Assembly: GCA_031277855.1 (NCBI GenBank)
Contig: JAITLO010000018.1
Span: 186,001 to 250,000 of the forward strand
Direction: 5' to 3'
Length of the DNA: 64,000 nucleotides
Source: Acidovorax sp.
Lineage (GTDB): Bacteria; Pseudomonadota; Gammaproteobacteria; Burkholderiales; Burkholderiaceae_C
A program made the position numbers and the translations under genes. Positions 10,791-57,032 of the stretch are shown here, in pieces; the stretch's first letter is position 1; the number at the start of each line of letters is the position of its first letter. Below the pieces are notes generated by a model. That model was given only the letters and a program-made list of their open reading frames with translations, had not been told where the DNA came from and did no database searches.

Positions 10791-10812
10791 GCGTGGTTTG
10801 CCGTGCCAGGTG

Positions 10813-13702: not shown

Positions 13703-13737
13703 GAACGCCCCGCAGCGCGTGGCGCATGCGGGGCGTT
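13703..13737 (-). terminator. Putative terminator of the Ala/Pro-rich protein gene
   Basis: AACGCCCCGCA (13704-13714) and its complement TGCGGGGCGTT (13727-13737) form an 11-bp stem. Only a weak T-rich tail (TTCTTC on the minus strand) follows. Confidence 0.6.
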
Positions 13738-13786
13738 GGAAAGCCGGTGCGCCAGCCTCAGCGCCAGCGCTTTTCAGGCCAGGTTT

Positions 13787-14554: not shown

Positions 14555-14583
14555 AAAAAAACCGCCCACAAAAGGGGCGGTTT
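14555..14583 (-). terminator. Terminator of the FMN reductase gene
   Basis: AAACCGCCC and GGGCGGTTT pair around a short loop. The U-tract (TTTTTT on the minus strand) is on the leftward side, about 20 bases past the stop at 14604. Confidence 0.88.
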
Positions 14584-14603
14584 GGCGCGCGCTGAGGCGC
14601 GGG

Positions 14604-15161: not shown

Positions 15162-15427
15162 GGGGAAAACCTTTGCAGAGAGGTGTGAAAAGACCTTGTC
15201 CAGTCTAGCGAGGGTCTGTGACACAAGGTGTCGGATAGTTCCTAAGAACAAAGGCGCATGCTGCTGCCTGTCCATCTCGGGTTCTCTGGCCCCATAACGC
15301 AAAAAAGATATCCTGATCTGTAAAAGCGGATACCTTTTATATGCAAAATTGAATAGTGAAACTCCGCAGTAACAGCATCAACGGCTTTGCCTCACAGGCA
15401 GGCCATCTCTTCTGTCTCCCATCTCCT

Positions 15428-16504: not shown

Positions 16505-16562
16505 CCTGTGCACTGGTGCACCGCCCGGTGCACCACATTCCGTGTTTTCTTTTGCCCCGATC

Positions 16563-17282: not shown

Positions 17283-17299
17283 GCGCTGCCGCTCCAATC

Positions 17300-17334
17300 A
17301 AAAAGGCTGGTCGCTTACGCGGCCAGCCTTTTTG
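17300..17334. terminator. Bidirectional terminator between PRTase and serB genes
   Basis: AAAAAGGCTGG and CCAGCCTTTTT flank a 13-base loop. Runs of A on the left and T on the right allow use from both convergent genes. Confidence 0.9.
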
Positions 17335-17352
17335 CATGTGGGAGCTTGGGGC

Positions 17353-18066: not shown

Positions 18067-18138
18067 GGGGAAACAGGGCAGTTGGATGCGGAAGGAGGCG
18101 GTGTGGCGCAGGCCATGGGGCGCGGCGCAGGGGCTGCA

Positions 18139-32402: not shown

Positions 32403-32479
32403 AGGCGCGTAGCTCAGCTGGTTAGAGCACCACCTTGACATGGTGGGGGTCGTTGGTTCGAGTCCAATCGCGCCTACCA
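32403..32479 (+). tRNA. tRNA-Val(GAC), copy 1
   Basis: The acceptor stem AGGCGCG (32403-32409) pairs with CGCGCCT (32469-32475), followed by A and encoded CCA. The anticodon arm CCACC-TTGACAT-GGTGG gives anticodon GAC (valine). The T-loop GGTTCGAGTCC is present. It starts 34 bases after the relA stop, and TAGAAT at 32378 is a candidate -10 box. The 77-base sequence is identical to the tRNA at 40133. Confidence 0.96.
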
Positions 32480-40132: not shown

Positions 40133-40209
40133 AGGCGCGTAGCTCAGCTGGTTAGAGCACCACCTTGACATGGTGGGGGTCGTTGGTTCGAGTCCAATCG
40201 CGCCTACCA
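40133..40209 (+). tRNA. tRNA-Val(GAC), copy 2
   Basis: Identical over all 77 bases to the tRNA at 32403, with the same direct orientation, anticodon GAC and encoded CCA. TACAAT at 40112 is a candidate -10 box, separate from the copy 1 promoter, so each copy is transcribed on its own. Confidence 0.96.
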
Positions 40210-40589: not shown

Positions 40590-40624
40590 CTTGTGATTTC
40601 TGCACTTTGAAACAGGAAAATCGC

Positions 40625-42237
40625 ATGAACCACATCTACCGCACCATCTGGAGCCATGCACAGCAATGCGTGGTGGTGGTTCCCGAGACAGCTTCTGTAT
40701 CAGGTTCCGCATCGGGTGGGGCACAGTCCGAAGTGGCTTCCGTGGCGCCAGTGGGCTGGATCGCCAGGCTCAGCGTGCTGGTTGCGGCCCTTGCCGGTGT
40801 GGGCGTGGTCATGGCCCAGGCTCTGCCTACGGGCGGGCAGGTGGTTGCAGGCAGTGGGCAGATCAGCCAAAGCGGCACGCAGCTCACCGTCAACCAGGGC
40901 TCGGATCGCCTGGTCACCAACTGGCAAAGCTTCAATATCGGCGCAGGCCACAGCGTGCAGTTCAACCAGCCCTCGGCCAGTGCTGTGGCGCTGAACCGGG
41001 TACTGGGTGCGGATGTGAGCTCCATCCAGGGCGCCTGGCGGGCCAATGGCCAGGTCTTCTTGCTCAATCCCAATGGCGTGGTCTTCAGCCCCACGGCCCA
41101 GGTGAATGTGGGTGGGCTGGTGGCCAGCACGCTCAAGCTCAGCGATGAAGACTTTATGGCAGGGCGCTACCAGCTCAGTGGCAACAGCACCCAGGCCATC
41201 ATCAACCAGGGAAAGATTGAAGCGACCCAGGGTGGCCATGTGGCCCTGGTGGCGGCCCGCATCGTCAACGATGGGCAGATCAAGGCCCCTGGCGGCAATG
41301 TGCTGCTGGGTGCAGGCCAGGCCGTGACGCTGGACTTTGGTGGTCCGGTGCAGATGCAAGTGAGCCAGGGTGCGCTGAATGCGCAGATTGCCAACGGCGG
41401 CGCCATTGTGGTGGAGGGCGGTCATGTGCTGCTCAGCGCCAAGGCAGCGGCCAACCTGGGCAATGCAGTGGTGAACCAGACCGGGTTGATAGAGGCCGGC
41501 AGCCTGCATGCCCAGGGCGGCAGCATCAGGCTGAGTGCCGAAGGCGGAGCCATTGTGCAGACCGGCCAGCTCAAGGCCGATGGCCAAAGCGGTGGGCAGA
41601 TCGAAGCCAGCGGCCGGGCCATTGTCGATGCAGGCCAGTGGAGTGCCCAGGGCAATATCGGCAGCGGAGGCAAGGGCGGCAGCATTGCGCTGCAGGCCAG
41701 CCAGAGCCTGGAGCAGACCGCCGCGGCCCAGCTCAACGCCAGCGGAACGCAAGGCGGTGGCAGCGTGCGCATCAATGGTGGCGCCAGCGCCTATCTCTCG
41801 GGCAGCAGCAAAGCCGACAGCAGCCACAGCGGTGCGGGCGGTGATGTATCGGCCACGGCCGACAAACTCATTCTGGCGGGCGCCCAACTCAGTGCCAATG
41901 GTGCCCAAGGCGGCGGCCGAGTGCGTGTGGGCGGTGGCTGGCAAGGGGGCGATGCCGACATCCGCAATGCCGCTAGCACCACGGTGACGGCCAGCAGTCA
42001 GCTCAGCGCCAATGCCACGGGCCGAGGAAACGGCGGCACGGTGGTGGTGTGGTCCGAAGAGGGCACGGGCGTGGCCGCCAAGATAGAGGCCAAGGGCGGA
42101 GCCTTGGGCGGCCATGGTGGCAAGGTGGAGGCATCGAGCAAGGGTGCGCTGGCGTTTGCGGCCCAGGTGGATGTGACGGCGGCCAAGGGCCAGGCCGGCC
42201 AGGTGCTGCTGGACCCCAAGAACATCACCATCAGCAA
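40625..42237 (+). repeat. Duplicated 5' block, copy 1 (tpsA1)
   Basis: It matches 46011-47623 almost base for base at a constant offset of 5386 bases with no net indel, covering the ESPR, TPS domain and the start of the stalk. Differences are scattered and mostly silent, apart from a short patch near 40725-40745. Confidence 0.9.
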
Positions 42238-45200
42238 CGATCCTGGCAATCCAGGCTTTGCGGTCACGCCTTTGACCTATAACAACCCGCAAGCGGGCGA
42301 TGGACACGGCAATGCGGGTGCGGTGGAGCTGAGCAATGGTCGGATTGTGGTGGCCTCTTCCAAGGACAACACTGTGGCCAGCGGTGCGGGTGCTGTTCGC
42401 CTGTATCAAACAGACGGTACTTTGATCTCGATACTGACCGGATCACAAGCCAATGACTCGGTAGGAAGTGCAGGCATCACGCTGCTGAGTGACGGCAACT
42501 ATGTGGTGGCCAGTCCCAACTGGGCCAATGGCACGGCGGCCAAGGCCGGCGCCGTCACCTGGGGCAGCGCCGCGGTTGGGGGCAGCGGCTCGGTCAGCAG
42601 CAGCAACAGCTTGGTTGGCAGTCAGGCCAACAGCTTGGTTGGCTCCAATGAAACTGCGGGCAAAACCAGCGGGGTCGTAGCGCTCAGTGATGGTCGCTAT
42701 GCGGTGCTGAGCTCCAATTGGGTCAACGGCACGGCCACCCGGGCCGGTGCGGTGACCTGGGTCCACGACGCAGCCCATAGAAGCGGTGTGGTTGGCAGCG
42801 GCAACAGCCTGGTCGGCACCAAAACCGATGACGCTGTGGGTGTAGGCGGGATCACCGCGCTGGGCAATGGCAACTATGTGGTCACCAGCCACCGTTGGGG
42901 CAATGGCACGGCCGCCCGATCCGGTGCGGTGACCTGGGTCGATGGTGCTGCCGGTATTACCGGAGAGTTGGACAGCGGCAATAGCCTGGTGGGTAGCCAG
43001 CAAGGTGATTACGTGGGCTACCAAGGCGTACAGGTGCTGAGCAATGGCAACTATGTGGTCATCAGCAGCAACTGGGCTAATGGAGCGGTCAAGGGGGCGG
43101 GGGCTGTCACCTGGGGTGATGGCCTGGGTGGTACCAATGGCGCGGTGAGCAGCAGCAACAGCTTGGTCGGCAGCCGGGCCAGTGACAGTGTGGGAACACG
43201 CGGGGTCATTGCGCTGAGCAATGGCAACTATGTGGTGGGCAGCAGCGAGTGGGCCAATGGCACGCAAGCCAGAGCCGGTGCAGTGACCTGGGGTAATGGC
43301 AACGGAGGCACTGCGGGCCTGGTGAGCAGCCTCAACAGTCTGGTGGGCACCCAGGCCAGTGATGCCGTGGGTCTCTCCGTCATGGCATTGAGCAATGGCA
43401 ACTATGTGGTGATCAGTCAAGACTGGGCCAATGGCGCAGCCAGCAAAGCCGGGGCCGTGACCTGGGGCAATGGCCAGGGAGGTACCAACGGTGCCGTCAG
43501 CAGTAGCAACAGCCTGGTGGGAAGCCGCAAGGATGATCGTGTTGGCTATGGGGGCAGGCAGCCTATTGCAGCAGACAACTTCAACATGGTGGGCGTCACC
43601 GCGCTGGCCAATGGCAACTACCTCGTGAACAGCGCCTACTGGGCCAATGGAACGGCCAGCAATGCCGGTGCCGTGACCTGGGCCAATGGCAGCGGGGGCA
43701 CGACCGGCCTGGTGAACAGCAGCAACAGCCTGGTGGGTACGCAGGTCAATGACTATGTGGGGGCGAATGGCATTGCCGTGTTGAGCAATGGCAACTATGT
43801 GGTGGTGAGCAGCGAGTGGGCCAATGGTACGGCCAGCAATGCCGGGGCTGTGACCTGGGGCAGTGCCGACGTTGGTGTGCATGGCGAGGTAGGCAGCCAC
43901 AACAGCCTGGTGGGCAGCAACAAAGACGATAAGGTGGGCTATATCTCCACCATAGACAGCAAACATTACCCGCAGCACAGAGGCATTACGGTGCTGGCCA
44001 ATGGCAACTATGTGGTGCACAGCGAGGCCTGGCGCAACGGCACGGCCAGCAATGCCGGAGCGGTGACCTGGGTGGATGGCAGCAAAGGCATCACCGGTGC
44101 TGTCAGCAGCAGCAACAGCCTGGTGGGAGGGCAAAGTGGCGATAACGTGGGCTACAAAGGCATCACGGAGCTCAGCAATGGCAACTATGTGGTCAACAGC
44201 GACCGCTGGGCCAATGGTGCAGCCAAGAGCGCAGGGGCGGTGACCTGGGTCAGCGGCACACAAGGTCTCACGGGCCTGGTGGGCAGCCACAACAGCCTGG
44301 TGGGCAGCCAGGCCAATGATGCCGTGGGGTTTACAGGCATCACGGCCCTGAACAACGGCAACTATGTGGTCGCCAGTCGTGGATGGAACAACGGAACGAT
44401 CAGCAGCGCCGGTGCCGTGACCTGGGGCAATGGCATCACTGGCACTACAGGCATAGTCAGCAGCAGCAACAGCCTGGTGGGTAGTCACGTCAACGACAAG
44501 GTGGGCAGCGGTGGCATCAAGGCCCTGCGCAACGGTGACTATGCGGTGTTGAGCCCCAACTGGGCCAATGGCGCAATCACAAGGGCAGGTGCCATCACCC
44601 TGGGCCTGGGTTTTGCAGGAGTGAAGGGCGTTATCGACAGCGGCAACAGTCTGGTGGGCACACAGGCCAATGACGCCATGGGCAATGGCCAGTTTCTGAA
44701 CTTGGGCAATGGCTCTATTTTGGTGGCTTCACCCGACTATCGCGCCAATCAGGGGCGGGTCGATATTCTGTGGCACGGTCAGTCCACCCCCCTGCTATAT
44801 ACGCTGGACCCCGGTGCCCACTACCAGCTCAACACCGGTTTGTTGGCGGCATTGCTGGGCACGGGAGCCCAGGTCACGCTGCAGGCCAATACCGATATCC
44901 ACCTGCGTGATGCCCTGGATGTGGTGGCCGCTGCAGGCAAGGGTGGAAATCTGACGTTGCAGGCCGGCCGCTCCATCCAACTTGATGCCGACCTGCGCAC
45001 TGGTAACGGCGATCTCACCCTGGTGGCCAATGACACGGCAGCCAGCGGTGTGGTCGATGCCCATCGCGATGCGGGTGCTGGTCACATCACCCAGGCCGCT
45101 GGCACCGCCATCGATGCAGGCTCGGGCACGGTGAACTTGCAAATACGCGATGGCCAAGGCATTGGCAAGGCCGAGGCTGGCCTGATCACCTTGTCCAAGG

Positions 45201-45883
45201 TGCTGGCAGGCGATTTGCAAATTGACAGCCAGTCGCTGGCCGCGACCTTGACGGCACAAAACAAGGTCTATGACGGCAATGAGGTCGCCGCTGCCACGGC
45301 GCATGTCACGGGCCTGGTGTTCCAGGCGGACAGCAACCTCCGTCTTGCGCCCATGGCCGCACGATTCAGCGATAAAAACGCGGGCCAGAACAAGGCCGTG
45401 ACGGTGGGGGCCTTGCAAGTCACGGGCTTTAACGGTCAGCAGATGAGCACCTTGCACAGCGACGGCCAGGTGCTGACGCCCACAGCCACGGCCAGCATCA
45501 CACCAAGAGCGCTGGACTTCACAGCCACCAAGCAAGCCGATGGCAGCAGCCGTTTTGACGCCTCGCAAATCAGCCTGGGGAATGTGGTTCAGGGCGACCA
45601 GGTGCTGTTGTCTGGCAGTGCTGATGTGGCTTCGCCCAATGCGGGACGCTACAAGGCTTTTGCGGTAAACGCCTTGCAGCTGAGCAATGGCAACTACAGC
45701 GTGTATGGCGGGCAGGTGCAGGTGACGATCCTGGGTCAGCCGTTGTTACCAGGCCCTGCTTGGTCGGTCAGCGAGCTGCTCCAGCAGGAAGAACGGGACT
45801 TGTCTGCGCCGCAGCAGGTAGCAATGGATTTGACCGTGCTGGGGGCCAAGGCCCCCGCCCAACAGCTGCAGCAGTTGAACTAA
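40625..45883 (+). CDS. Two-partner-secretion exoprotein 1 (filamentous-haemagglutinin-like)
   Basis: A 1752-aa secreted adhesin candidate. An extended signal peptide (ESPR) MNHIYRTIWSHAQQC precedes the signal core and cleavage after VVMAQA. The TPS domain (about residues 70-310) starts LPTGGQVVAGSGQISQSG and holds SFNIGAGHSVQFNQP and FLLNPNGVVFSP. After a beta-helix-like region, 12 repeats of about 60 residues span 615-1355. They are built on LSNGNYVV, W-x-NG(T/A), AGAVTW and SSSNSLVG, and eight have an N-G-T sequon. A YDG/MBG-like domain follows (NKVYDGNEVAAAT, then ALDFTATKQADGSSRF), and the tail is DLTVLGAKAPAQQLQQLN. I see no Cys after residue 15. It heads an operon with a paralogue, TpsB and a glycosyltransferase. 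Confidence 0.92.
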   Translation: MNHIYRTIWSHAQQCVVVVPETASVSGSASGGAQSEVASVAPVGWIARLSVLVAALAGVGVVMAQALPTGGQVVAGSGQISQSGTQLTVNQGSDRLVTNWQSFNIGAGHSVQFNQPSASAVALNRVLGADVSSIQGAWRANGQVFLLNPNGVVFSPTAQVNVGGLVASTLKLSDEDFMAGRYQLSGNSTQAIINQGKIEATQGGHVALVAARIVNDGQIKAPGGNVLLGAGQAVTLDFGGPVQMQVSQGALNAQIANGGAIVVEGGHVLLSAKAAANLGNAVVNQTGLIEAGSLHAQGGSIRLSAEGGAIVQTGQLKADGQSGGQIEASGRAIVDAGQWSAQGNIGSGGKGGSIALQASQSLEQTAAAQLNASGTQGGGSVRINGGASAYLSGSSKADSSHSGAGGDVSATADKLILAGAQLSANGAQGGGRVRVGGGWQGGDADIRNAASTTVTASSQLSANATGRGNGGTVVVWSEEGTGVAAKIEAKGGALGGHGGKVEASSKGALAFAAQVDVTAAKGQAGQVLLDPKNITISNDPGNPGFAVTPLTYNNPQAGDGHGNAGAVELSNGRIVVASSKDNTVASGAGAVRLYQTDGTLISILTGSQANDSVGSAGITLLSDGNYVVASPNWANGTAAKAGAVTWGSAAVGGSGSVSSSNSLVGSQANSLVGSNETAGKTSGVVALSDGRYAVLSSNWVNGTATRAGAVTWVHDAAHRSGVVGSGNSLVGTKTDDAVGVGGITALGNGNYVVTSHRWGNGTAARSGAVTWVDGAAGITGELDSGNSLVGSQQGDYVGYQGVQVLSNGNYVVISSNWANGAVKGAGAVTWGDGLGGTNGAVSSSNSLVGSRASDSVGTRGVIALSNGNYVVGSSEWANGTQARAGAVTWGNGNGGTAGLVSSLNSLVGTQASDAVGLSVMALSNGNYVVISQDWANGAASKAGAVTWGNGQGGTNGAVSSSNSLVGSRKDDRVGYGGRQPIAADNFNMVGVTALANGNYLVNSAYWANGTASNAGAVTWANGSGGTTGLVNSSNSLVGTQVNDYVGANGIAVLSNGNYVVVSSEWANGTASNAGAVTWGSADVGVHGEVGSHNSLVGSNKDDKVGYISTIDSKHYPQHRGITVLANGNYVVHSEAWRNGTASNAGAVTWVDGSKGITGAVSSSNSLVGGQSGDNVGYKGITELSNGNYVVNSDRWANGAAKSAGAVTWVSGTQGLTGLVGSHNSLVGSQANDAVGFTGITALNNGNYVVASRGWNNGTISSAGAVTWGNGITGTTGIVSSSNSLVGSHVNDKVGSGGIKALRNGDYAVLSPNWANGAITRAGAITLGLGFAGVKGVIDSGNSLVGTQANDAMGNGQFLNLGNGSILVASPDYRANQGRVDILWHGQSTPLLYTLDPGAHYQLNTGLLAALLGTGAQVTLQANTDIHLRDALDVVAAAGKGGNLTLQAGRSIQLDADLRTGNGDLTLVANDTAASGVVDAHRDAGAGHITQAAGTAIDAGSGTVNLQIRDGQGIGKAEAGLITLSKVLAGDLQIDSQSLAATLTAQNKVYDGNEVAAATAHVTGLVFQADSNLRLAPMAARFSDKNAGQNKAVTVGALQVTGFNGQQMSTLHSDGQVLTPTATASITPRALDFTATKQADGSSRFDASQISLGNVVQGDQVLLSGSADVASPNAGRYKAFAVNALQLSNGNYSVYGGQVQVTILGQPLLPGPAWSVSELLQQEERDLSAPQQVAMDLTVLGAKAPAQQLQQLN
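42470..44690 (+). repeat. Array of 12 coding repeats in exoprotein 1
   Basis: Units of about 174-230 bases. Conserved core residues are NGNYVV, W-x-NG(T/A), AGAVTW, G-x-VSSSNSLVG and a D-x-VG turn. Two units carry insertions (near 43560 and 43950). The repeat resembles the family I recall as DUF5649, but that name should be verified. Confidence 0.85.
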
Positions 45884-45965
45884 GGGGCGAGGAAGACGAC
45901 AGTGGATGTGAGGTGTGGACTACAGGAGTACGAGAAGAAAGAGCGGTAGATATAGATAAACGGTT

Positions 45966-45975
45966 GTTACGATTT
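45966..45975 (+). promoter_or_regulatory. Conserved leader 10-mer of tpsA2
   Basis: GTTACGATTT again 45 bases before the ATG, in the 127-base spacer between the two exoprotein genes. The rest of the spacer is AT-richer than the coding DNA on either side. Confidence 0.45.
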
Positions 45976-46010
45976 TTTCCAATTGATTCAATTCAACATG
46001 GGGAAGTCGC

Positions 46011-47623
46011 ATGAACCACATCTACCGCACCATCTGGAGCCATGCACAGCAATGCGTGGTGGTGGTTCCCGAGACAGCTTCTGTATCAGGTTCCGCATCG
46101 GGTGGAGCACAGTCTGTATCGGCTCCCGTGGTGCCAGTGGGCTGGATTGCCAGGCTCAGCGTGCTGGTGGCGGCCCTTGCCGGTGCGGGCGTGGTCATGG
46201 CCCAGGCTCTGCCCACGGGTGGGCAGGTGGTTGCAGGCAGTGGGCAGATCAGCCAAAGCGGTACGCAGCTCACCGTCAACCAGGGCTCGGATCGCCTGGT
46301 CACCAACTGGCAAAGCTTCAACATCGGCGCTGGCCACAGCGTGCAGTTCAACCAGCCCTCGGCCAGTGCCGTGGCGCTGAACCGGGTGTTGGGTGCGGAT
46401 GTGAGCTCCATCCAGGGCGCCTTGCGGGCCAATGGCCAGGTCTTCCTGCTCAACCCCAATGGTGTGGTCTTCAGCCCCACGGCCCAGGTGAATGTGGGTG
46501 GGCTGGTAGCCAGTACGCTCAAGCTCAGCGATCAAGACTTTATGGCCGGGCGCTACCAGCTCAGTGGCAACAGCACCCAGGCCATCATCAACCAGGGAAA
46601 GATTGAAGCGACCCAGGGTGGCCATGTGGCCCTGGTGGCGGCCCGCATCGTCAACGACGGGCAGATCAAGGCCCCTGGCGGCAATGTGCTGCTGGGTGCA
46701 GGCCAGGCCGTGACCCTGGACTTTGGTGGTCCGGTGCAGATGCAAGTGAGCCAGGGTGCGCTGAATGCGCAGATTGCCAACGGCGGCGCCATTGTGGTGG
46801 AGGGCGGCCATGTGCTGCTCAGCGCCAAGGCGGCGGCCAACCTGGGCAATGCGGTGGTGAACCAGACCGGGCTGATAGAGGCCACCAGCCTGCATGCCCA
46901 GGGCGGCAGCATCAGGCTGAGTGCCGAAGGCGGAGCCATTGTGCAGACCGGCCAACTCAAGGCCAACGGCCAGGCTGGTGGGCACATCGAAGCCAGCGGC
47001 CGGGCCATTGTCGATGCGGGCCAGTGGAGTGCCCAGGGCAATATCGGCAGCGGTGGCAAGGGCGGCAGCATTGCGCTGCAGGCCAGCCAGAGCCTGGAGC
47101 AGACCGCAGCGGCCCAGCTCAACGCCAGCGGAGCGCAAGGCGGTGGCAGCGTGCGCATCGATGGTGGCGCCAGCGCCTATCTCTCGGGCAGCAGCAAAGC
47201 CGACAGCAGCCACGGTGGTGTGGGTGGCGATGTCTCAGCCACGGCCGACAAACTCATTTTGGCGGGCGCCCAACTCAGCGCCAATGGCGCCCAAGGCGGC
47301 GGCCGCGTGCGTGTGGGCGGTGGCTGGCAAGGGGGCGATGCCGATATCCGCAATGCGGCCAGCACCACGGTGACGGCCAGCAGCCAGCTCAGCGCCAATG
47401 CCACGGGCCAAGGAAACGGCGGCACGGTGGTGGTGTGGTCGGAAGAAGGCACGGGCGTGGCCGCCAAGATAGAGGCCAAGGGCGGAGCCTTGGGCGGCCA
47501 TGGCGGCAAGGTGGAGGCATCGAGCAAGGGTGCGCTGGCGTTTGCGGCCCAGGTGAATGTGACGGCGGCCAAGGGCCAGGCCGGTCAGGTGTTGTTAGAC
47601 CCCAAGAACATCACCATCAGCAA
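46011..47623 (+). repeat. Duplicated 5' block, copy 2 (tpsA2)
   Basis: Partner of 40625-42237, with the same offset of 5386 throughout. The homology ends sharply where the proteins read ISNDPGNPG versus ISNGADSPS. Confidence 0.9.
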
Positions 47624-50600
47624 CGGGGCCGACAGCCCTAGCTACACGGTCACGCCGCTGACCTATACCAACCCGCAGGCGGGTGACAGTCACGGCAGTG
47701 CGGGCGCCGTGGAGCTCAGCAACGGCAATATTGTGGTGGCCTCGCCCGAAGACAGCACCATCGTCGCTAAGGCCGGAGCCGTGCGCCTTTACAAGGTGGA
47801 TGGCACCTTGATTTCCACGCTCACGGGGGGGCAGGCAGGCGACCGTGTAGGGGAGGCGGCTGGCTATTTTTTGTCAGGTTCCACTCCGGTGATTCCTGTG
47901 GGTAATGGCAATTTTTTGGTGCATAGCGGTAACTGGGCCAATGGCACGGCAGCCCCGAAAGCGGGCGCCGTCACCTGGGGTAGTGGCACGGGGGGGGTTA
48001 GCGGCGTGGTCAGCAGCAGCAACAGTCTGGTGGGCAGCCAGGCCGATGACCAAGTGGGCTACCACGGGATTACGGTGCTCAGCAATGGCAACTATGTTGT
48101 CGCAAGCCCCGAGTGGGCCAATGGTGCGTTAACCAGGGCTGGTGCTGTGACCTGGGGCGGCGGGAACATCGGTGTCAGCGGGGAAGTCAGCAGCAGCAAC
48201 AGCCTGGTCGGTCAAGCGAATGACCAGGTGGGGCGGTGGTTTCGTGATAGTGGCATCCAGGCGCTGAGCAATGGCAACTATGTGGTTGTGAGTACCCTTT
48301 GGAACAATGGGACCGCCTCTGAGGCAGGTGCTGTGACCTGGGGCAGTGGTACGGCAGGGGTCACAGGCGAGGTCAGCAGCAGCAACAGCCTGGTGGGTAC
48401 GCAAGAACGGGACAGGGTGGGCAGCTACCGCATCACAGAGCTTGCCAATGGCCACTATGTGGTGGGCAGCCAATTCTGGGCCAATGGCACTGAGGAACAA
48501 GCAGGTGCTGTGACTTGGGGCAGCGGAACGGCCGGTGTCAGCGGCGAGGTCAACAGCAGCAACAGCTTGGTTGGTACTCAAACCTATGACCAACTAGGCT
48601 CTCAAGGCGTTCGAGCGCTGAGCAATGGCAACTATGTGGTGGGTAGCTCCAACTGGGCCAATGGCACGGCTGTCTGGGCCGGGGCCGTAACCTGGGGTAA
48701 TGGCCAGGGAGGCACCAGTGGCGCTGTCAGCAGCAGCAACAGCCTGGTGGGCACGCAGGCCAATGATCGCGTGGGCAGTGGCAGTATCACCGAGCTCGCC
48801 AATGGCAACTATGTGGTCGGTAGCTCCAACTGGGCCAATGGCACAGCCACCCAGGCAGGCGCCGTGACCTGGGTCAGCAGCTCGGGCAGCAAGAGTGGTG
48901 TGGTCAGCAGCAGCAACAGCCTGGTGGGCACGCAGGCCAACGATAACGTGGGCAGTGACGGCATCACGGTGCTGGGCAATGGCAACTATGTGGTGAGGAG
49001 CTCCAACTGGGCCAATGGCACGGCTGCCCAGGCTGGCGCTGTGACCTGGGGCAGTGGCACGGCAGGGGCCAAGGGCGTGGTCGGCAGCAGCAACAGCCTG
49101 GTGGGTAGCCAAATCAAGGACCAAGTGGGTGGAAATTGGATTCAAGAGCTTGTCCATGGCAATTACGTGGTGGTGAGTTACGACTGGGCCAATGGCACGG
49201 CCACAAGGGCGGGCGCTGTGACCTGGGGCAGTGGCACGGCAGGGGTCACAGGCGTGGTCAGCAGCAGCAACAGCCTGGTGGGCACGCAAACCAACGACTA
49301 TGTGGGCAGCAACGGTGTTCACGCGCTGAGCAATGGCAACTATGTGGTGGTAGGTTTTGAGTGGAACAATGGTACGGTGGTAAAAGCCGGCGCCGTGACC
49401 TGGGGTGATGGCGCTACCGGTATCAGCGGCGTAGTCAGCAGCAGCAACAGTATGGTGGGCACGCAAGCCAACGACTATGTGGGCAGGGGCGGCATCACGG
49501 TGCTGGGTAATGGCAACTATGTGGTGGACAGCCAATACTGGGCCAACGGCACGGCCACCAAGGCAGGTGCCGTGACCTGGGGCAGTGGTACGGTCGGCGT
49601 CAGTGGCGAGATTAGCAGCAGCAACAGCCTGGTGGGAACGCAAGCCAATGATGGCATGGGGGGCTGGTGGGGCCGTGTCATGGCGCTGGGCAATGGCGAC
49701 TATGTGGTGAAAAGCTCCAACTGGGCCAATGGCACGGCACAAAATGCAGGCGCGGTGACCTGGGTCGATGGGGCCAAGAAGATTACCGGCGTAGTCAGCA
49801 GCAGCAACAGCCTGGTCGGCACGCAGGCCAACGATTCCGTAGGCAGTGGCGGTATTACGGTGCTGGACAATGGCAACTATGTGGTGGCGAGTTCCAACTG
49901 GGCCAATGGCACGGCGGCGGCGGCGGGGGCTGTGACCTGGGTCAGCAGCTCGGGCAGCAAGAGTGGTGTGGTCAGCAGCAGCAACAGCCTGGTGGGCGCG
50001 CAAACCAATGATTCCGTAGGCAGCGGCGGCATCACAGCACTTGCCAATGGCGACTATGTGGTGAGCAGCTCCAACTGGGCCAATGGCACGGCTGCGGCGG
50101 CGGGAGCTGTGACCTGGGTCAGCAGTTCGGGCAGCAAGAGTGGTGTACTCAGCAGCAGCAACAGCTTGCTTGGCACATACACAGGCGACCAACTGGGGTC
50201 TGGTGGTTCACCGGGCATAGCTGGTGTGCGAGTGCTGAGCAATGGCGCTGTTTTGGTGACTTCATCGCGCTACCAATCCAATCAGGGACGTGTTGATATT
50301 TTGTCTTCTGGGCAGCCCAGCCCTTTGCTGTATGCATTGGACCCCAGCGCCAACTACAACCTCAATGTAGACACCCTGGCCAATCTGCTGGCTACGGGCG
50401 CCCAGGTCACGCTGCAGGCGAATACCAATATCAGCCTGCTCGATGCCTTGAAGGTAAACAGCGCCAAGGGGGGCGACCTGACGCTGCAGGCGGGTCGCTC
50501 TATCTTGCTCAATGCCGATGTGCACACCGGCAATGGCAATCTCACCCTGGTGGCCAATGACACGGCGGCCAGCGGCGTGGTGGATGCCCACCGAGACAAG

Positions 50601-51911
50601 GGGCCTGGGAACATCGTTCAGGAGAGCGGCACCACCATTGATGCAGGCACAGGTACTGTGAAGCTGCAGGTGCGGGACGGCAAAGGCATTGCCAATGCAG
50701 AGGCCGGCATCATTCTGTTGTCCAAGGTGCGGGCGGGGGATTTGCAGATCGATAGCCATAAGCTGAGCGCCACTTTGTGGGCGAAGAACAAGGTCTATGA
50801 CGGTCTGGTGGGCGCCGATGCATGGGCCGCTTTACAGGGGCTGGATTTCCACAACGACAGCAATCTGCGCAGAGCGCCTGATGTTTTCCAGTTCGCCGAC
50901 AAGAACGTGGGGCAGAACAAGGTTGTGACTACAACGCCTTTGCGGATCACGGGCTTTAACGGGACACAAAGCAGCACGCTGTACCGCGATGGTCAGGTGC
51001 TGGCCCCCACGGGGACGGCAGACATTACGCAACGCCTGCTCACCGTCACGGCTACGGCCGCCAACAAGGTCTACGACGGCAACGCCTTGGCCGCTGCCAC
51101 GCTGGCGGGAAACTACCTTGCCGGTGATGACGTGAGTTTTGCCCACAGCGGTGGCAACTTTGACAGCAAGAACGCCGGCATGGGCAAGACCGTGACCGTG
51201 GGCGGCATCACTCTGGCCGGGGCCGATGCGGGTAACTACCGCTTCAACACCACGGCCACCACCCAGGCTGACATCACCCTTCGTGCGCTGAATGTGGCGG
51301 CCACGGCCGCCAGCAAGGTCTATGACGGCAACACCTTGGCCCAGCTGAGTTTTAGCGACGACCGCATTGCCGGTGATGTGCTCACCCTGGCAGGCAACGG
51401 CAACTTTGACGACAAGAACGCCGGCACAGGCAAGACCGTGACCGTGGGCGGCATCACCCTGGCCGGTGCCGATGCAGGCAACTACAGCTTCAACACCACG
51501 GCCACCACCCAGGCCGACATTACGCCCCGGGCATTGGACTTCACGGCCAGCAAGCAGGCCGATGGCAGCAGCCGTTTTGATGCCTCGCAAATCAGCCTGG
51601 GGAATGTGATTCAGGGCGACCAGGTGCTGCTGTCTGGCAGCGCGGATGTGGCATCGCCCGATGTCGGCCGCTACAGGGCTTTCACCGTGAACGCATTGCA
51701 ATCGAGCAACGGTAACTACAGCACACAGGGTGGGCAGGTACTGGCCACGATTGTGGCGCAGCAATTACCCCTAGACCCAAGTCCCCTCTGGAGAGCAAGT
51801 GATGTGCTCCAGCAGGAGGAACGAGACTTTCCTGAGCCTCCGCAAAACGCACTGGATTTGACCGTGCTGGGGGCCAAGGCGCCCAGCCAACAACTACGGC
51901 AACTGCACTGA
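46011..51911 (+). CDS. Two-partner-secretion exoprotein 2 (paralogue)
   Basis: A 1966-aa paralogue with the identical ESPR and near-identical TPS domain. The repeat region (about residues 625-1413) has 13 units; 12 of them carry N-G-T at the W-x-N-G-T position, and one reads NGAL. The C-terminal part has three NKVYDG/SKVYDG-type YDG domains against one in exoprotein 1; two of these share GITLAGADAGNY, so the region has been expanded by internal duplication. The last domain (ALDFTASKQADGSSRF) and tail (LDLTVLGAKAPSQQLRQLH) match exoprotein 1. No Cys follows residue 15. It is followed after ten bases by the TpsB gene. Confidence 0.92.
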   Translation: MNHIYRTIWSHAQQCVVVVPETASVSGSASGGAQSVSAPVVPVGWIARLSVLVAALAGAGVVMAQALPTGGQVVAGSGQISQSGTQLTVNQGSDRLVTNWQSFNIGAGHSVQFNQPSASAVALNRVLGADVSSIQGALRANGQVFLLNPNGVVFSPTAQVNVGGLVASTLKLSDQDFMAGRYQLSGNSTQAIINQGKIEATQGGHVALVAARIVNDGQIKAPGGNVLLGAGQAVTLDFGGPVQMQVSQGALNAQIANGGAIVVEGGHVLLSAKAAANLGNAVVNQTGLIEATSLHAQGGSIRLSAEGGAIVQTGQLKANGQAGGHIEASGRAIVDAGQWSAQGNIGSGGKGGSIALQASQSLEQTAAAQLNASGAQGGGSVRIDGGASAYLSGSSKADSSHGGVGGDVSATADKLILAGAQLSANGAQGGGRVRVGGGWQGGDADIRNAASTTVTASSQLSANATGQGNGGTVVVWSEEGTGVAAKIEAKGGALGGHGGKVEASSKGALAFAAQVNVTAAKGQAGQVLLDPKNITISNGADSPSYTVTPLTYTNPQAGDSHGSAGAVELSNGNIVVASPEDSTIVAKAGAVRLYKVDGTLISTLTGGQAGDRVGEAAGYFLSGSTPVIPVGNGNFLVHSGNWANGTAAPKAGAVTWGSGTGGVSGVVSSSNSLVGSQADDQVGYHGITVLSNGNYVVASPEWANGALTRAGAVTWGGGNIGVSGEVSSSNSLVGQANDQVGRWFRDSGIQALSNGNYVVVSTLWNNGTASEAGAVTWGSGTAGVTGEVSSSNSLVGTQERDRVGSYRITELANGHYVVGSQFWANGTEEQAGAVTWGSGTAGVSGEVNSSNSLVGTQTYDQLGSQGVRALSNGNYVVGSSNWANGTAVWAGAVTWGNGQGGTSGAVSSSNSLVGTQANDRVGSGSITELANGNYVVGSSNWANGTATQAGAVTWVSSSGSKSGVVSSSNSLVGTQANDNVGSDGITVLGNGNYVVRSSNWANGTAAQAGAVTWGSGTAGAKGVVGSSNSLVGSQIKDQVGGNWIQELVHGNYVVVSYDWANGTATRAGAVTWGSGTAGVTGVVSSSNSLVGTQTNDYVGSNGVHALSNGNYVVVGFEWNNGTVVKAGAVTWGDGATGISGVVSSSNSMVGTQANDYVGRGGITVLGNGNYVVDSQYWANGTATKAGAVTWGSGTVGVSGEISSSNSLVGTQANDGMGGWWGRVMALGNGDYVVKSSNWANGTAQNAGAVTWVDGAKKITGVVSSSNSLVGTQANDSVGSGGITVLDNGNYVVASSNWANGTAAAAGAVTWVSSSGSKSGVVSSSNSLVGAQTNDSVGSGGITALANGDYVVSSSNWANGTAAAAGAVTWVSSSGSKSGVLSSSNSLLGTYTGDQLGSGGSPGIAGVRVLSNGAVLVTSSRYQSNQGRVDILSSGQPSPLLYALDPSANYNLNVDTLANLLATGAQVTLQANTNISLLDALKVNSAKGGDLTLQAGRSILLNADVHTGNGNLTLVANDTAASGVVDAHRDKGPGNIVQESGTTIDAGTGTVKLQVRDGKGIANAEAGIILLSKVRAGDLQIDSHKLSATLWAKNKVYDGLVGADAWAALQGLDFHNDSNLRRAPDVFQFADKNVGQNKVVTTTPLRITGFNGTQSSTLYRDGQVLAPTGTADITQRLLTVTATAANKVYDGNALAAATLAGNYLAGDDVSFAHSGGNFDSKNAGMGKTVTVGGITLAGADAGNYRFNTTATTQADITLRALNVAATAASKVYDGNTLAQLSFSDDRIAGDVLTLAGNGNFDDKNAGTGKTVTVGGITLAGADAGNYSFNTTATTQADITPRALDFTASKQADGSSRFDASQISLGNVIQGDQVLLSGSADVASPDVGRYRAFTVNALQSSNGNYSTQGGQVLATIVAQQLPLDPSPLWRASDVLQQEERDFPEPPQNALDLTVLGAKAPSQQLRQLH
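47880..50250 (+). repeat. Array of 13 coding repeats in exoprotein 2
   Basis: Same unit as in exoprotein 1, more uniform in length (about 170-190 bases). The last few units are very alike (SSNWANGTAAAAGAVTWVSS occurs twice in succession), pointing to recent unit duplication. Confidence 0.87.
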
Positions 51912-51921
51912 GGTCGAACGC

Positions 51922-53637
51922 ATGCTCTTTGAAAAAAATCGCTCACGCTTGGAGTCCTTGGTGTCACCTCATACAGTTCGTCAAAGTTGTTTTTTAGGGT
52001 TTGTGGGTTGGATGGGGCTTTTGCTGCCGGTGCAAGCCCAGCATGTACGCCCGCCGGATGCGGGCCGGCTGCTGCAGGAAAACCGGCCCGCGCCTGCCCC
52101 TCCTTCGGCAGCGCCGGTGCTGCCTGGGACTTTGCAAAGCGATGGCAGTGCAGATGCCGTGCCGGCTGCGGGGCCGCGTGTGGTGCTGCGTGAGGTGCGT
52201 GTGCAAGAGGTACCCGGTGTGGACATGGCGCGGTTGCGGGCGGCCACAGGTTTGGACCAGGTAGCGGGTCAGGCGCTGGACTTGAACGGCCTGCGCGCGC
52301 TGGCGCAACAGGTGACGCACTATCTGCAGGAGCAGGGCTATCTCGTGGCCAGAGCATGGCTGCCGGAGCAAGACCTCTCCAGCGGTGTGCTGCAAATCCA
52401 GGTGCTGGAGGGCCGCTATGGCCAGGCCCTGGCCCAGGGTAGTGACAGCGCCGTGGCTGCTGCTGCCCAACGTTGGCTGGCGCCCATGCCACATGGCCAG
52501 GTGGTGACCCGGCCGCAGCTGCACCGCAGCCTGCTGCTGTTGACGGATTTGCCCGGTATCAGCACGCGCTCGGTGCTGCGCCCCGGTGCCGAGGTTGGCG
52601 AGGCCGACTTGCTGCTGGAGGTGGAGCCCACCGAACGTTGGAAGGGCCGGGTGGCTTTGGACAACTATGGCAACCGCTATTCCGGCCGTGAGCGTTTGAG
52701 CGCAGGTGTGGAGTTGCAGCCTGGCCTGGTGCTGGGAGACCAGGCCAGCATCGATGTGCTGGGCACGCGCGAAAAGACCTGGCAGGCCGCTGCCAGCTAC
52801 AGCCTGCCGCTGGGTATTGATGGCTGGCGGCTGCAGACCCAACTCAGCCGCACCGACTACCAGTTGGGCAAGGAGTTTTCGGCGCTGGATGCACATGGCA
52901 CAGCCGATACCTTCTTCCTGGGGGCGAGCTATCCGCTGCTGCGCACGCAATACGCCAACATCCGCACCTCCATGGGCTGGCAATACCGCAGATTGCGCGA
53001 TTACCGCGATGCGCTGCACAACGCCGAACGCAAAAACGCCAAGGCCGTGGTGCTGAGCCTGAGTGGCGATTGGATCGAGCCCCATGCCGTGAGCTGGGGC
53101 AGCCTCAGCCTGCATGCTGGCGACCTCCAGCTGCGCGATGAGCAGCGGGCGATCGATAGCCTCACCGCCCGTACGGCCGGCCGCTACAACCGCCTGAATC
53201 TGGATGCGGCACGGATTCAATCCGTGCTCAGCGACTGGAGCGTATATGGACGCGTTTCCGCGCAATGGGCGAACAAAAACCTGGATGGCTCCGAAAAAAT
53301 GACCCTGGGCGGCAGCACCGGGGTGCGTGGCTGGCCCACGGGAGAGGCCATGGGTGACCGGGGCTGGCTGGCCCAGTTGGAGCTGCGCTGGCAACTGGCA
53401 CCGGCCTGGCAGCCCTATGTGTTTGTGGATGGGGGCTCGGTCCACCTGAACAAATCGCCCTGGTGGGTGGGGCATAACTCCCGCTCCATCTATGGCCGTG
53501 GCTTGGGCGTGCGCTATGACGCCAAGCCCATCAAGGTGGATCTGTCCGTGGCACGGCGCAATGGATCGTCCGCCTCGCAGTCCGAACCCGATGCCAGCCG
53601 TACGCGGGTGTGGTTGAGCGCCTCCTACCAGTTCTGA
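51922..53637 (+). CDS. TpsB outer-membrane transporter (FhaC/ShlB/HecB family)
   Basis: A 571-aa protein. A signal peptide ends at LLLPVQA. The N-terminal part has a Pro-rich linker, then two POTRA domains: VVLREVRVQEVPGVDMARL (about residue 90) and GVLQIQVLEGRYG with the following helix (about 155-230). A 16-strand-barrel-type C-terminus follows, with the TpsB motif GVRGWPTGEAMGDRG near residue 470, the VRG-x tip that sits in the pore. It ends in SASYQF with a terminal Phe, as outer-membrane proteins do. It presumably secretes both upstream exoproteins. Its GAGGT ribosome site overlaps the tpsA2 stop. Confidence 0.93.
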   Translation: MLFEKNRSRLESLVSPHTVRQSCFLGFVGWMGLLLPVQAQHVRPPDAGRLLQENRPAPAPPSAAPVLPGTLQSDGSADAVPAAGPRVVLREVRVQEVPGVDMARLRAATGLDQVAGQALDLNGLRALAQQVTHYLQEQGYLVARAWLPEQDLSSGVLQIQVLEGRYGQALAQGSDSAVAAAAQRWLAPMPHGQVVTRPQLHRSLLLLTDLPGISTRSVLRPGAEVGEADLLLEVEPTERWKGRVALDNYGNRYSGRERLSAGVELQPGLVLGDQASIDVLGTREKTWQAAASYSLPLGIDGWRLQTQLSRTDYQLGKEFSALDAHGTADTFFLGASYPLLRTQYANIRTSMGWQYRRLRDYRDALHNAERKNAKAVVLSLSGDWIEPHAVSWGSLSLHAGDLQLRDEQRAIDSLTARTAGRYNRLNLDAARIQSVLSDWSVYGRVSAQWANKNLDGSEKMTLGGSTGVRGWPTGEAMGDRGWLAQLELRWQLAPAWQPYVFVDGGSVHLNKSPWWVGHNSRSIYGRGLGVRYDAKPIKVDLSVARRNGSSASQSEPDASRTRVWLSASYQF

Positions 53638-53736
53638 ACACAGGCCCTGAGAGTGGCACTGCGCACTCTCGGGGACACAAGGCATAGCAGGGAAACCGCC
53701 TGCTTTGCCGTGACAACGGCTTTTCTTGGACAGCTT

Positions 53737-55725
53737 ATGAGTGAAATCGATGCAGCAGTCATGCAGTCGCTCCGGCAGCAGCTGCAGGCCCCACATGACA
53801 CGGAAAAATTGCAGCAATTCGTGCAGCAGCTCACGGCCTTGCATGGCCCGAGAATGGAATACCTGTGCGGGGAGGGCTTGCTGTCTGCAGGCAAGCCCGG
53901 TCTGGCCCTGCCTTATCTGGCGCAGGCGGCGCGCACATTGCGCCAAGACCCTCTGGTGGCACACAACCATGCGGAGGCCTTGCGCCAGCTGGGGCAGGAC
54001 GAGGCAGCAGCCCTGGAGTTCCAGCGGACGATAGGGCTGCAGCCCAAATTTTTGCCGTCCCGTCGTGCGCTGATCGATCTGCTGGAGCAGGTCCTGGTGC
54101 GCATACAGGCTTCGGGAGACCCTCAGATGGCCGCGCTGCAAGTCCAGGGGCTGTCGTCGCTGCTCAATGACACCGGCAATATTTTGCTGGAGCAGGGGCA
54201 GGGGTTTCTGGCCATGGAGCTGTACCGGCGCGCTGTTTTCCATACTCCCCACTCTGCTGCAGCGCTCAGCAATCTGGGCAATGTGCTGCACATGGATGGG
54301 CAGCTGGAACAGGCCGAGCGCTGCTGCCGGCAGGCGCTGGAGATCAACCCCCAGCTGGCATCGGCCTGGAACAACCTGGGCAATGTGCTGGCCGAGCAAG
54401 AACTGGAGCAGCAAGCGGCGGAGTGCTATGACAAGGCCATCGCCCTGGACAGCAATCTCAAAGACCAGGCCGAGCACAACAAATGGGGCGGCACGCTGTT
54501 CAATCTGTTGCACAGCGACCGCTATAGCGATGCCGAAGTGTTTCGCCGTCACCGGAACTGGGGGCTGCGGCATGCATTGGCACGCATCGAAGAGCTACAG
54601 ACGCCGGCACTGGAATGGCGCCCCGGCACACCGATCACGGTGGGCTATCTGTCTGCCGATTTCCGCTCGCATGCCATGCGCCACTACCTGGAGCCCTTGC
54701 TGGCAGGCCATGACCGCTCCAGAGTGAAGGTGGTGTGCTACGCGCAAAGCCCGGTGGTGGACGAGTACACCCAGCAGCTCATGGGATACGGCCATCTGTG
54801 GCGGCCCATACATGATTTGAATGATGCCCAGCTGTGTGCCTTGATCCGCAGCGACGGCGTGCATATCTTGGTCGACTGCCTGGGTCACACCCAGGGCAGC
54901 CGCATCACTGCTTTGGCGAGCAAACCGGCACCCGTGTTGATGAGCTATCTGGGCTACCTGGGAACGACGGGGTTGCCGGCCATGGACTTTCGCATCACCG
55001 ATGACTGGATGGACCCGCCTGGCATGACCGAGCGCTACCACACCGAGCAGTTGCTGCGGGTGCCGGGCGGATCGGTGGGCTATTTGCCGCACCAGCATTC
55101 CCCCGAGGTGAATCGCCTGCCGGCGCTGGAAAAAGGCCACATCACTTTTGGCTCGCTCAACAAGCTTAAAAAGCTCAATCTGGGCGTGGTCAAGCTGTGG
55201 GCCCGTGTCTTGCGCGCAGTGCCTGGCAGCCGCTTGCTGCTGAAGACCAAGCAATTGGCAGATCCGCGCTCAGCCGGCCGGGTGCTGGGCCTGTTTGAAG
55301 CCCATGGCATAGAGGCGGCGCGCATCGAGCTGCAGCCTGCCACCAGCAACCATTTGCAGGCCTATCACCACATCGATATCGCTCTGGACCCCTTTCCCTT
55401 TGGAGGCGGTGCCACCAGCTGCGATGCCTTGTGGATGGGCGTTCCGGTGGTGACCATGCCCGGCCGCCGCAGCGCCAGCCGGCTCACGCACTGCATCTTG
55501 CACAGCCTGGGCTGTGAGCAATGGTCTGCGGTGGACGAGGATGCCTATGTGGCCTGTGCGGTGGAACTGGCCAGCCATGCCGAGCACCTGGACGAAATCA
55601 GGCAGCAGTTGCGCAGCCATATGCAGGCCTCGCCCATGATGCGTCCGCAGACCATCGCCTCTCGGTTTGAGCGCCTGTACGAGCAAGCGCTGTCTATGCC
55701 GAAAACCGCCCGCCTGCAGGCCTAA
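53737..55725 (+). CDS. TPR-containing GT41 (O-GlcNAc-transferase-like) glycosyltransferase
   Basis: A 662-aa cytoplasmic protein. TPR-like repeats at about residues 60-260 include AALSNLGNVLHMDGQLEQAE and ASAWNNLGNVLAEQELEQQA. The catalytic half opens with VGYLSADFRSHAMRHYLEPL, as in OGT/SPINDLY. It continues with LVDCLGHTQGSR, YLGYLGTTG, ITFGSLNKLKKLNL (the nucleotide-sugar-contact Lys region) and DPFPFGGGATSCDALWMGVP. This is the GT41 fold and motif order. HMW1C of Haemophilus, also GT41, N-glycosylates a TPS adhesin in the cytoplasm. It is the last gene after the two exoproteins and TpsB, so the exoproteins are the likely acceptors (inference). It ends overlapping moeA by four bases, tail to tail. 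Confidence 0.9.
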   Translation: MSEIDAAVMQSLRQQLQAPHDTEKLQQFVQQLTALHGPRMEYLCGEGLLSAGKPGLALPYLAQAARTLRQDPLVAHNHAEALRQLGQDEAAALEFQRTIGLQPKFLPSRRALIDLLEQVLVRIQASGDPQMAALQVQGLSSLLNDTGNILLEQGQGFLAMELYRRAVFHTPHSAAALSNLGNVLHMDGQLEQAERCCRQALEINPQLASAWNNLGNVLAEQELEQQAAECYDKAIALDSNLKDQAEHNKWGGTLFNLLHSDRYSDAEVFRRHRNWGLRHALARIEELQTPALEWRPGTPITVGYLSADFRSHAMRHYLEPLLAGHDRSRVKVVCYAQSPVVDEYTQQLMGYGHLWRPIHDLNDAQLCALIRSDGVHILVDCLGHTQGSRITALASKPAPVLMSYLGYLGTTGLPAMDFRITDDWMDPPGMTERYHTEQLLRVPGGSVGYLPHQHSPEVNRLPALEKGHITFGSLNKLKKLNLGVVKLWARVLRAVPGSRLLLKTKQLADPRSAGRVLGLFEAHGIEAARIELQPATSNHLQAYHHIDIALDPFPFGGGATSCDALWMGVPVVTMPGRRSASRLTHCILHSLGCEQWSAVDEDAYVACAVELASHAEHLDEIRQQLRSHMQASPMMRPQTIASRFERLYEQALSMPKTARLQA

Positions 55726-57032
55726 AACACACCGTGCAAGGGCAGTGCGTCCACCAGCGTGCCGGCCTCTAGATCACCTTGCGCATGGGGCAGCCACAGC
55801 AAGGCGTCGGCCTGCACCAGGCTGCTGAGCATGGCCGAGCTTTGGTTGCCGGTGGGCAGGGCCTGCACCACGCCTTGGGCGTTACGGGTCAGCGTGGCCC
55901 GCACAAACTCTGTGCGGCCCGCGCGTTTGCGCAGCGGTGCGGCCAGCGGCACTTGCAGCAGCGCCGGCATGGCCAGTGATGCCTCCATGCCCATGGTTTG
56001 CAGCAGGGCAGGGCGGGCCAGCAATAAAAAGCTGAGCAGGGCTGCTACCGGGTTGCCGGGCAGGCCCAGCAGCAGTGCACCGGGTTGGCCATGTGTGCCT
56101 CGCATGCGGCCGGCCGCCAGCGGGCGGCCGGGGCGCATGGCAATACGCAAAAAGGCGACGTCGCCCAGCTCGGCCAGCATGGTCTGGGTGTGGTCGGCAT
56201 CGCCGCTGCTGACACCGCCGCTGGTGAGAACCACGTCGGCCTGGGCGGCTTGCAGCAAGGTGGCGCGCAGGGCGGCAGGCGCATCGGGTACGGCGCCCAG
56301 GTCTTGTACCTCGCAGCCCAGTTGCTGCAGGGCGGCCGCCAGCGCAAAGCGGTTGCTGTCGTAAATGGCGCCGCTGCGGGGCGCATCACCGGGTTGCAGA
56401 ATCTCGTCGCCGGTGGAAAACAAGGCCACACGCAGACGGCGGCGCACGCTGACCTGGGGCAGACCCAGGCCGGCGAGCAGACCCAGCTCGGCCGGGCTCA
56501 GGCGGGTGCCTGCAGCCAGGGCCGTGGCACCGGCTGCCAGCTCTTCACCGCGCTGGCGGCAGTTGGCACCGGCGCGCAGGGCGGCAGCCGTAAAGCGTAC
56601 TTGCTGCGCCGTGGCATCGACCTGGCAATGCTCAAAGGGCACAACGGTGTCCATCCCCGGCGGCATCATGGCGCCGGTCATGATGCGCAACGCCTGGCCT
56701 GCGGGCAGCGCGCCCTGCCAGGGCTGGCCGGCCAGCACGGTGCCGGCAATGGGCAGGCTGAGGTCGCCATGGCCATCGGTGTTGGCATCACGGCCCGCCA
56801 GCAGGCTGCCGGCAAAGGCATAGCCATCCATGGCAGCGTTATCGTGCGGGGGCACATCAACCGGTGAGATGACGGCCTGCGCCAGCACGCGGCCCAGGGC
56901 CTGGTGCAGCGGCAGGGTTTGCGTTTCAGTCACGGGCTGGACCAGTTTGCGCAGCAGGGCCTGGACCTGGTCCACACGCATGGCACCGGGCTGGGCGTCG
57001 ATCTCGGAAAGCAATTGGGCAACAGAGGACAT
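55722..57032 (-). CDS. moeA: Molybdopterin molybdotransferase
   Basis: A 436-aa protein that inserts molybdate into adenylylated molybdopterin. Landmarks are ISPVDVPPHDNAAMDGYAF (about residues 55-73), IMTGAMMPPGMDTVVPFEH, FSTGDEILQPGD, IYDSNRFALAA, LTSGGVSSGDADHT and LLGLPGNPVAALLSF. Its ATG overlaps the mobA stop by one base (TGATG), so the two are translationally coupled. Confidence 0.95.
   Translation of the reverse strand: MSSVAQLLSEIDAQPGAMRVDQVQALLRKLVQPVTETQTLPLHQALGRVLAQAVISPVDVPPHDNAAMDGYAFAGSLLAGRDANTDGHGDLSLPIAGTVLAGQPWQGALPAGQALRIMTGAMMPPGMDTVVPFEHCQVDATAQQVRFTAAALRAGANCRQRGEELAAGATALAAGTRLSPAELGLLAGLGLPQVSVRRRLRVALFSTGDEILQPGDAPRSGAIYDSNRFALAAALQQLGCEVQDLGAVPDAPAALRATLLQAAQADVVLTSGGVSSGDADHTQTMLAELGDVAFLRIAMRPGRPLAAGRMRGTHGQPGALLLGLPGNPVAALLSFLLLARPALLQTMGMEASLAMPALLQVPLAAPLRKRAGRTEFVRATLTRNAQGVVQALPTGNQSSAMLSSLVQADALLWLPHAQGDLEAGTLVDALPLHGVF

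Follow-up and report, generated by a model that had tools for sequence, protein, structure and literature searches.

A glycosyltransferase gene next to two-partner secretion genes suggests a new route for glycosylating exoproteins before export

Which enzymes attach sugars to the exoproteins of two-partner secretion (TPS) systems? HMW1C and HMW2C are known as glycosylating partners and other TpsA proteins are glycosylated as well (PMC5422565), HMW1C-like enzymes have been described in TPS gene rows, Burkholderia included (PMC3983070), and two enzyme classes, NGT and BAHT, have been counted for type V secreted proteins (PMC8151025; this and the other papers given by PMC number are cited from excerpts). 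The question is raised again by a locus of Acidovorax sp. (assembly GCA_031277855.1), located in a stretch of 64,000 nucleotides (contig JAITLO010000018.1, positions 186,001 to 250,000) that we call the window. Four genes follow each other in tandem on its plus strand: two exoprotein genes (tpsA1 and tpsA2), the translocator gene tpsB and a gene encoding a glycosyltransferase of family GT41 with tetratricopeptide repeats (TPR), separated by 127, 10 and 99 bases (Table 1). This one-strand row with its 10-base and 99-base junctions had been read from the sequence in an original prediction, and coordinates and Pfam searches agree with it.

We propose, with the balance about even, a three-partner TPS system in which the TPR-type GT41 enzyme glycosylates both TpsA proteins before export and one TpsB exports both. 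The cytoplasmic enzyme would add single sugars to its putative substrates, the two co-encoded exoproteins, before their export by the Sec system, and TpsB would recognise their near-identical TPS domains and pass both through the outer membrane. The acceptors may be Ser and Thr residues of the repeats, candidates being the Thr in W-A-N-G-T and a run of Ser ahead of N-S-L-V-G, and the donor would be a small hexose rather than GlcNAc. The parts of this proposal that are based on sequence are the gene row, the domain layouts, the type of the enzyme, the conservation of the row and of the catalytic His and Lys, and purifying selection. On the best reading, this TPR-type GT41 belongs to neither of the two classes of enzyme that have been described for type V secretion; no description of such an enzyme encoded in a TPS row was found in titles and abstract openings of the open-access literature, among the matches listed.

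Architecture and donor pocket of the enzyme

Judged by similarity, Pfam domains and predicted fold, the enzyme has the SPINDLY/OGT architecture and not that of HMW1C. Among sequences of the Protein Data Bank (PDB), the catalytic domain was closest to SPINDLY (8e-76), followed by TtOGT (4e-66), human OGT (~2e-40) and XcOGT (1e-32), while HMW1C-like proteins ranked last among these matches (1e-8). An AlphaFold2 model built on 35 alignment rows reached a mean pLDDT of 90.3, and a Foldseek search with it returned SPINDLY chains at the top, then TtOGT (TM 0.89 on the target, 3.1 Å) and then OGT, with no HMW1C entry in the best 50 of 1654 matches. The TPR superhelix, the GT-B domain of GT41 type and the catalytic Lys and His that mark TPR-type GT41 enzymes (the SPY/OGT group) are all present. 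A Pfam search at E up to 0.001 found neither HMW1C_N (PF18071) nor HMw1_D2 (PF18254), both of which are carried by the HMW1C-like protein of locus L277 that served as positive control, and the enzyme scored 31.7 bits with the NCBIfam model NGTferase (NF049992), below its cut-off of 1000, a value that other HMW1C-like proteins of the order do not reach either (exceeded in one of 300 genomes; six HMW1C-like rows score about 500-700 bits). Pfam, PDB similarity, model fold and the control protein thus bear out the predicted TPR-plus-catalytic layout of OGT type.

In the trees (FastTree with 182 rows, IQ-TREE with 48 rows) the enzyme pairs with that of a second genome of the genus, G035 (support 100/100), and the two form a clade with the enzymes of loci L053 and L054 (100/100) among the TPR-type enzymes. 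The unconstrained trees place it outside the HMW1C-like group, but a tree in which the window and G035 enzymes were forced into one clade with three HMW1C-like rows was not rejected (p-AU 0.17): HMW1C sits on a very long stem, and the tree alone does not exclude HMW1C kinship. Because this stem attaches uncertainly, the distinction from HMW1C was drawn from domains and similarity.

SPINDLY, the plant protein O-fucosyltransferase (7Y4I/8DTI), is the best natural PDB match of the whole enzyme, by sequence and by fold, and shares with it the TPR and GT41 domains. According to PMC10027727, few of the SPINDLY-like enzymes, those of bacteria among them, have been characterised, three residues separate SPY from OGT (K689/L866, A731/R904 and Y744/C917), and an intermediate, partly prokaryotic group has mixed patterns. 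At these positions the window enzyme has K503, A542 and F555, which is the SPY pattern in two of three, and the OGT signature L866, R904 and C917 is replaced by K, A and F. The equivalents of H495 and K665 are kept as H312 and K479, whereas SPY T747/T748 are changed to Gly/Ala and I722/L723 align to a gap. With the OGTs (hOGT, TtOGT, XcOGT) the enzyme shares TPR and GT41 domains, and TtOGT aligns over its length, but the intervening domain of hOGT is missing.

The Y744 position has been argued to set the size of the pocket and is occupied by F517 in ApHMW1C, which uses UDP-glucose (PMC9715652). Because the donor-pocket residues are mixed, with F at the position taken by C in OGT and by Y in SPY, GlcNAc is unlikely as donor sugar, so that the predicted likeness to OGT stands for the layout and not for O-GlcNAc as the sugar. 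GDP-fucose as donor is uncertain, since GDP-mannose dehydratase (GMD) scores 597.9 bits in the source genome (G000) but no more than 67.4 bits in G035, where the same enzyme is encoded (cut-off 415). SPINDLY-type fucosylation, considered as the default, lost weight because of F555 and because no GMD of G035 passes the cut-off.

Exoproteins and candidate acceptors

Both exoproteins contain ESPR, a TPS domain and YDG in Pfam searches, with 12 (TpsA1) and 13 (TpsA2) stretches of DUF5650, and together with the POTRA_2 and ShlB domains of TpsB this corresponds to type Vb two-partner secretion. The two genes are 94.2% identical over a part of 1744 bases that begins 10 bases ahead of the start and takes in the signal and the TPS domain (96.7% over 520 codons of the proteins), and 54-70% identical in the repeat blocks. 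In alignment columns 1501-1900, a part that is thinly aligned in places, TpsA2 and the TpsA of G035 are 84-94% identical and TpsA1 is mostly 60-74% identical to either; in columns 1901-2000, the G035 protein is 23-27% identical to both and TpsA1 and TpsA2 are 77% identical. This pattern fits a pair in which gene conversion or recent copying keeps the export heads similar and the passengers diverge. The dN/dS of the TpsA2 C-terminus between window and G035 is 0.383.

That a single TpsB serves two exoproteins had been considered a notable feature. It is plausible because the TPS domains are near-identical, but the pair looks like a tandem copy; the syntenic relative G035 has one tpsA, which may be the ancestral state or a deletion by recombination. 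Three tandem tpsA-like genes, one with DUF5650 repeats, occur at locus L164 (genome G151, 3-13270), with no GT41 in the examined stretch.

A Cys pair within the last 20 residues of TpsA is a feature of HMW-type surface tethering (PMC3983070); each TpsA of the window has one Cys and none within these residues. A model of the DUF5650 repeats from a two-row alignment had a mean pLDDT of 28.9, and nothing was drawn from it. The repeat profile found one weak match in the PDB (E 0.49), and a Pfam search allowing E values up to 10 yielded, besides DUF5650, only two matches, both below their cut-offs; a presumed likeness of the repeats to FG-GAP propeller blades is unsupported. No paper on DUF5650 was found in the open-access literature.

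For acceptor hints, 32 DUF5650 repeats from enzyme-linked and 16 from unlinked exoproteins (8 of the latter from one protein) were compared over 61 columns, anchored on W-x-[ND]-[GK] and with motifs failing a second filter dropped. Ser or Thr was commoner in the linked repeats at three columns (26/32 versus 2/16, 32/32 versus 5/16 and 23/32 versus 1/16), at which the unlinked repeats mostly have Ala or Gly. In this exploratory comparison such columns name candidate acceptors and not sites, because repeats of the same lineage cannot count as independent.

The same repeats bear on the possibility, in our view unlikely, that the enzyme modifies the Asn of N-X-S/T, acting like HMW1C on a SPINDLY-like build, with W-A-N-G-T as a sequon. 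Of 40 W-x-N-G motifs in enzyme-linked TpsA proteins 27 are followed by S or T, and of 37 in unlinked ones 11 (aligned repeats, 26/32 versus 2/16), F555 corresponds to F517 of the glucosyltransferase ApHMW1C and to the F of six HMW1C-like rows, and the constrained tree with three such rows was, as mentioned, not rejected. However, the enzyme lacks both HMW1C domains and falls far below the NGTferase cut-off, and TPR-type GT41 enzymes modify Ser/Thr in the literature consulted (PMC10027727, PMC9715652). Total sequons were not above shuffled sequences in TpsA1 (21 versus 21.6, sd 4.2) and TpsA2 (30 versus 26.2, sd 4.5), with 31 versus 21.0 (sd 4.0) in the TpsA of G035, and an overall sequon enrichment was therefore discarded as proof of N-glycosylation.

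Linkage of TPR-type GT41 genes to TPS genes

In a survey of 53 genomes of the genus, including the source, GT41 was found in 23 and TpsB in 34. The row recurs syntenically in one of the 52 other species, G035, with identities of 86.7% for TpsB, 86.5% for GT41 and 67-68% for TpsA and with synteny extending to both sides, including a tRNA-Val pair and moeA. The next nearest genome by MoeA (79%), G043, aligns on the moeA side from window position 55732 onward, and within the 19.9 kb examined there is no alignment to any part of this row.

Of 399 genomes of the family, 89 contained matches to the enzyme at E up to 1e-60, in 114 rows altogether, with two candidates scored per genome. We inspected 79 stretches for the best 95 of these rows (the window's included, four second rows excepted), some of them cut by contig ends, and with G035 these make 80 neighbourhoods, scanned as 82 stretches of which two are extensions. 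TpsB lies near GT41 in G035, in three species of genus g104 (L067, L069 and L107) and in three of genus g95 (L092, L127 and L132). L067 and L069 have tpsB-GT41 tandems with gaps of 9 and 43 bases, and in g95 one of two GT41 genes is divergent from tpsB. The TPS-linked enzymes of these genera fall into two clades apart from that of the window, B1 and B2, each with support 1.0, and linkage changes at least three times on the 48-row tree. A single clade of TPS-linked enzymes was rejected for window plus B1 (p-AU 0.0004), and the window clade of four, with the unlinked L053 and L054, plus B1 was not rejected (p 0.53). The pairing therefore probably arose two or three times, as judged from these trees, and one gain with losses is possible for the window clade and B1.

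Several observations weigh against the proposed system. SPY T747/T748, replaced here, matter for SPY activity, and at two columns Ser/Thr is rarer in linked repeats (3/32 versus 12/16 and 1/32 versus 7/16). Linkage is rare: TpsB within 10 kb was found for 2 of 31 GT41 loci of the genus (G000 and G035), leaving 29 not linked to TPS genes, and near GT41 in 7 of the 80 family neighbourhoods. The closest relatives of the enzyme beyond the genus (48% and 45%) have no TPS gene in the examined stretches, one contig ending just past the gene. Among named genomes, where an alignment query gave 80 loci and a single-enzyme query no relative, neither tpsA nor tpsB was found in the examined flanks of the 35 loci matched with the catalytic domain as query (some others of the 80 match by TPR alone), and GT41 was absent from all eight examined stretches (six genomes) with DUF5650 loci of other genera. 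The linkage in relatives on which the original prediction depended is conserved in G035, and in two further genera TPR-type GT41 genes of other clades lie in TPS loci.

It is conceivable but improbable that the substrate of the enzyme is some other protein of the cytoplasm or the surface and that the gene stands behind tpsB by chance or for co-regulation. The majority of examined GT41 loci have no TPS link, and related enzymes adjoin unrelated genes, such as those for a TldD-like protein or a Ser/Thr kinase. Against this, with one GT41 and two TpsB genes found in the 49 contigs of the source genome (4.77 Mb, 95.5% complete), the chance that such genes lie on one strand and within 200 bases of each other is ~4e-5, the row is kept in G035 despite divergence (dS 0.5 for tpsB and 0.8 for GT41), and the pairing recurs with other GT41 clades in two genera. 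Because of this low chance and the conservation in G035, we do not consider the adjacency accidental.

The plasmid search gave only relatives below 60% identity (45 records). One of ten HMW1C-like loci examined from the order lies in a TPS row, L277 (genome G620, 8808-18360; tpsB, tpsA and NGT on one strand). Five of the six g104 and g95 stretches have two TPR-type GT41 enzymes of different clades, and the five B2 enzymes have Gln at the usual catalytic His position. L069, L092 and L107 encode a nearby protein with a PLP...RRR tail, which resembles a PEP-CTERM signal; Pfam gave no match for two proteins of L107. Loci L063, L065, L061 and L074-L076 have very long open frames, each with three or four tandem GT41 catalytic segments.

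Concerning the row itself, ATG was taken as the start of tpsA1 (40625, where MNHIYRTIW equals the tpsA2 start; in-frame GTG also at 40577) and of the GT41 gene (53737; GTG also at 53653). The convergent moeA (55722-57032, minus strand), followed by mobA (Pfam/NCBIfam), shares 4 bases with the GT41 3' end. A tRNA-Val gene lies upstream of tpsA1 (40133-40209); with a second one (32403-32479, ~7.7 kb apart, same strand, both gac) it forms the pair kept in G035. Promoter-like and terminator-like sites showed no excess over shuffled sequences across the region.

Table 1 Features of the TPS-GT41 locus (positions within the window)
Feature	Position	Strand	Remarks
tpsA1	40625..45883	+	exoprotein, 1752 aa; ESPR signal, TPS domain, DUF5650 array, YDG (Pfam)
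tpsA2	46011..51911	+	exoprotein, 1966 aa; tpsA1-like layout, 3 YDG stretches (Pfam)
tpsB	51922..53637	+	outer-membrane translocator, 571 aa; POTRA_2 and ShlB barrel (Pfam)
tpsB-GT41 gap	53638..53736	+	99 bases; G035 counterpart 98 bases
GT41 glycosyltransferase, TPR-type	53737..55725	+	662 aa counted from ATG; Pfam TPR and Glyco_transf_41
TPR superhelix of GT41 enzyme	53800..54507	+	model helices, residues 22-257
GT-B catalytic domain of GT41 enzyme	54607..55701	+	H312, K479, K503, A542, F555 (ATG numbering)
Near-identical 5' thirds of tpsA1/tpsA2	40615-42357 and 46001-47743	+	94.2% identity, remainder diverged
DUF5650 repeat array, TpsA1	42485..44686	+	period mostly 59 aa; repeats hold W-A-N-G-T/A and V-S-S-S-N-S
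DUF5650 repeat array, TpsA2	47898..50201	+	repeat analysis

A possible further class of glycosylating partner

A role of the enzyme as TPR chaperone or holdase for the exoproteins, its transferase activity being weak or absent, is very unlikely. The modelled superhelix, the altered donor contacts at T747/T748 and a chaperone function also proposed for HMW1C (PMC3983070) could be cited for it, but the enzyme retains the GT-B fold and the catalytic Lys and His, and dN/dS between window and G035 is 0.105 over the whole enzyme (0.144 for TpsB), which points to purifying selection on it.

The proposed glycosylating system resembles HMW1A/HMW1B/HMW1C and EtpA/EtpB/EtpC in the order tpsA-tpsB-GT41 on one strand, with GT41 behind tpsB, and in exoproteins with an extended signal and a TPS domain. 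It differs in its TPR and OGT/SPY-type GT-B enzyme without HMW1C_N and HMw1_D2, in having two tpsA genes and in DUF5650-containing TpsA proteins without the C-terminal Cys pair. The bacterial autotransporter heptosyltransferases (BAHT, such as Aah and TibC) likewise glycosylate type V passengers in the cytoplasm, on Ser/Thr, and are described as a family unrelated to HMW1C (PMC8151025).

A further class of dedicated cytoplasmic glycosyltransferases for type V secretion would consist of TPR-type GT41 enzymes that descend from the SPINDLY/OGT group, entered TPS loci on two or three occasions in one bacterial family and add a non-GlcNAc hexose to repeat passengers; in our estimate this idea has an even chance of being correct. 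As the enzyme is encoded directly behind TpsB and two repeat exoproteins, its likely substrate is named and a direct test is possible. If true, the finding would add an enzyme class to the two counted for the cytoplasmic glycosylation of type V proteins (PMC8151025).

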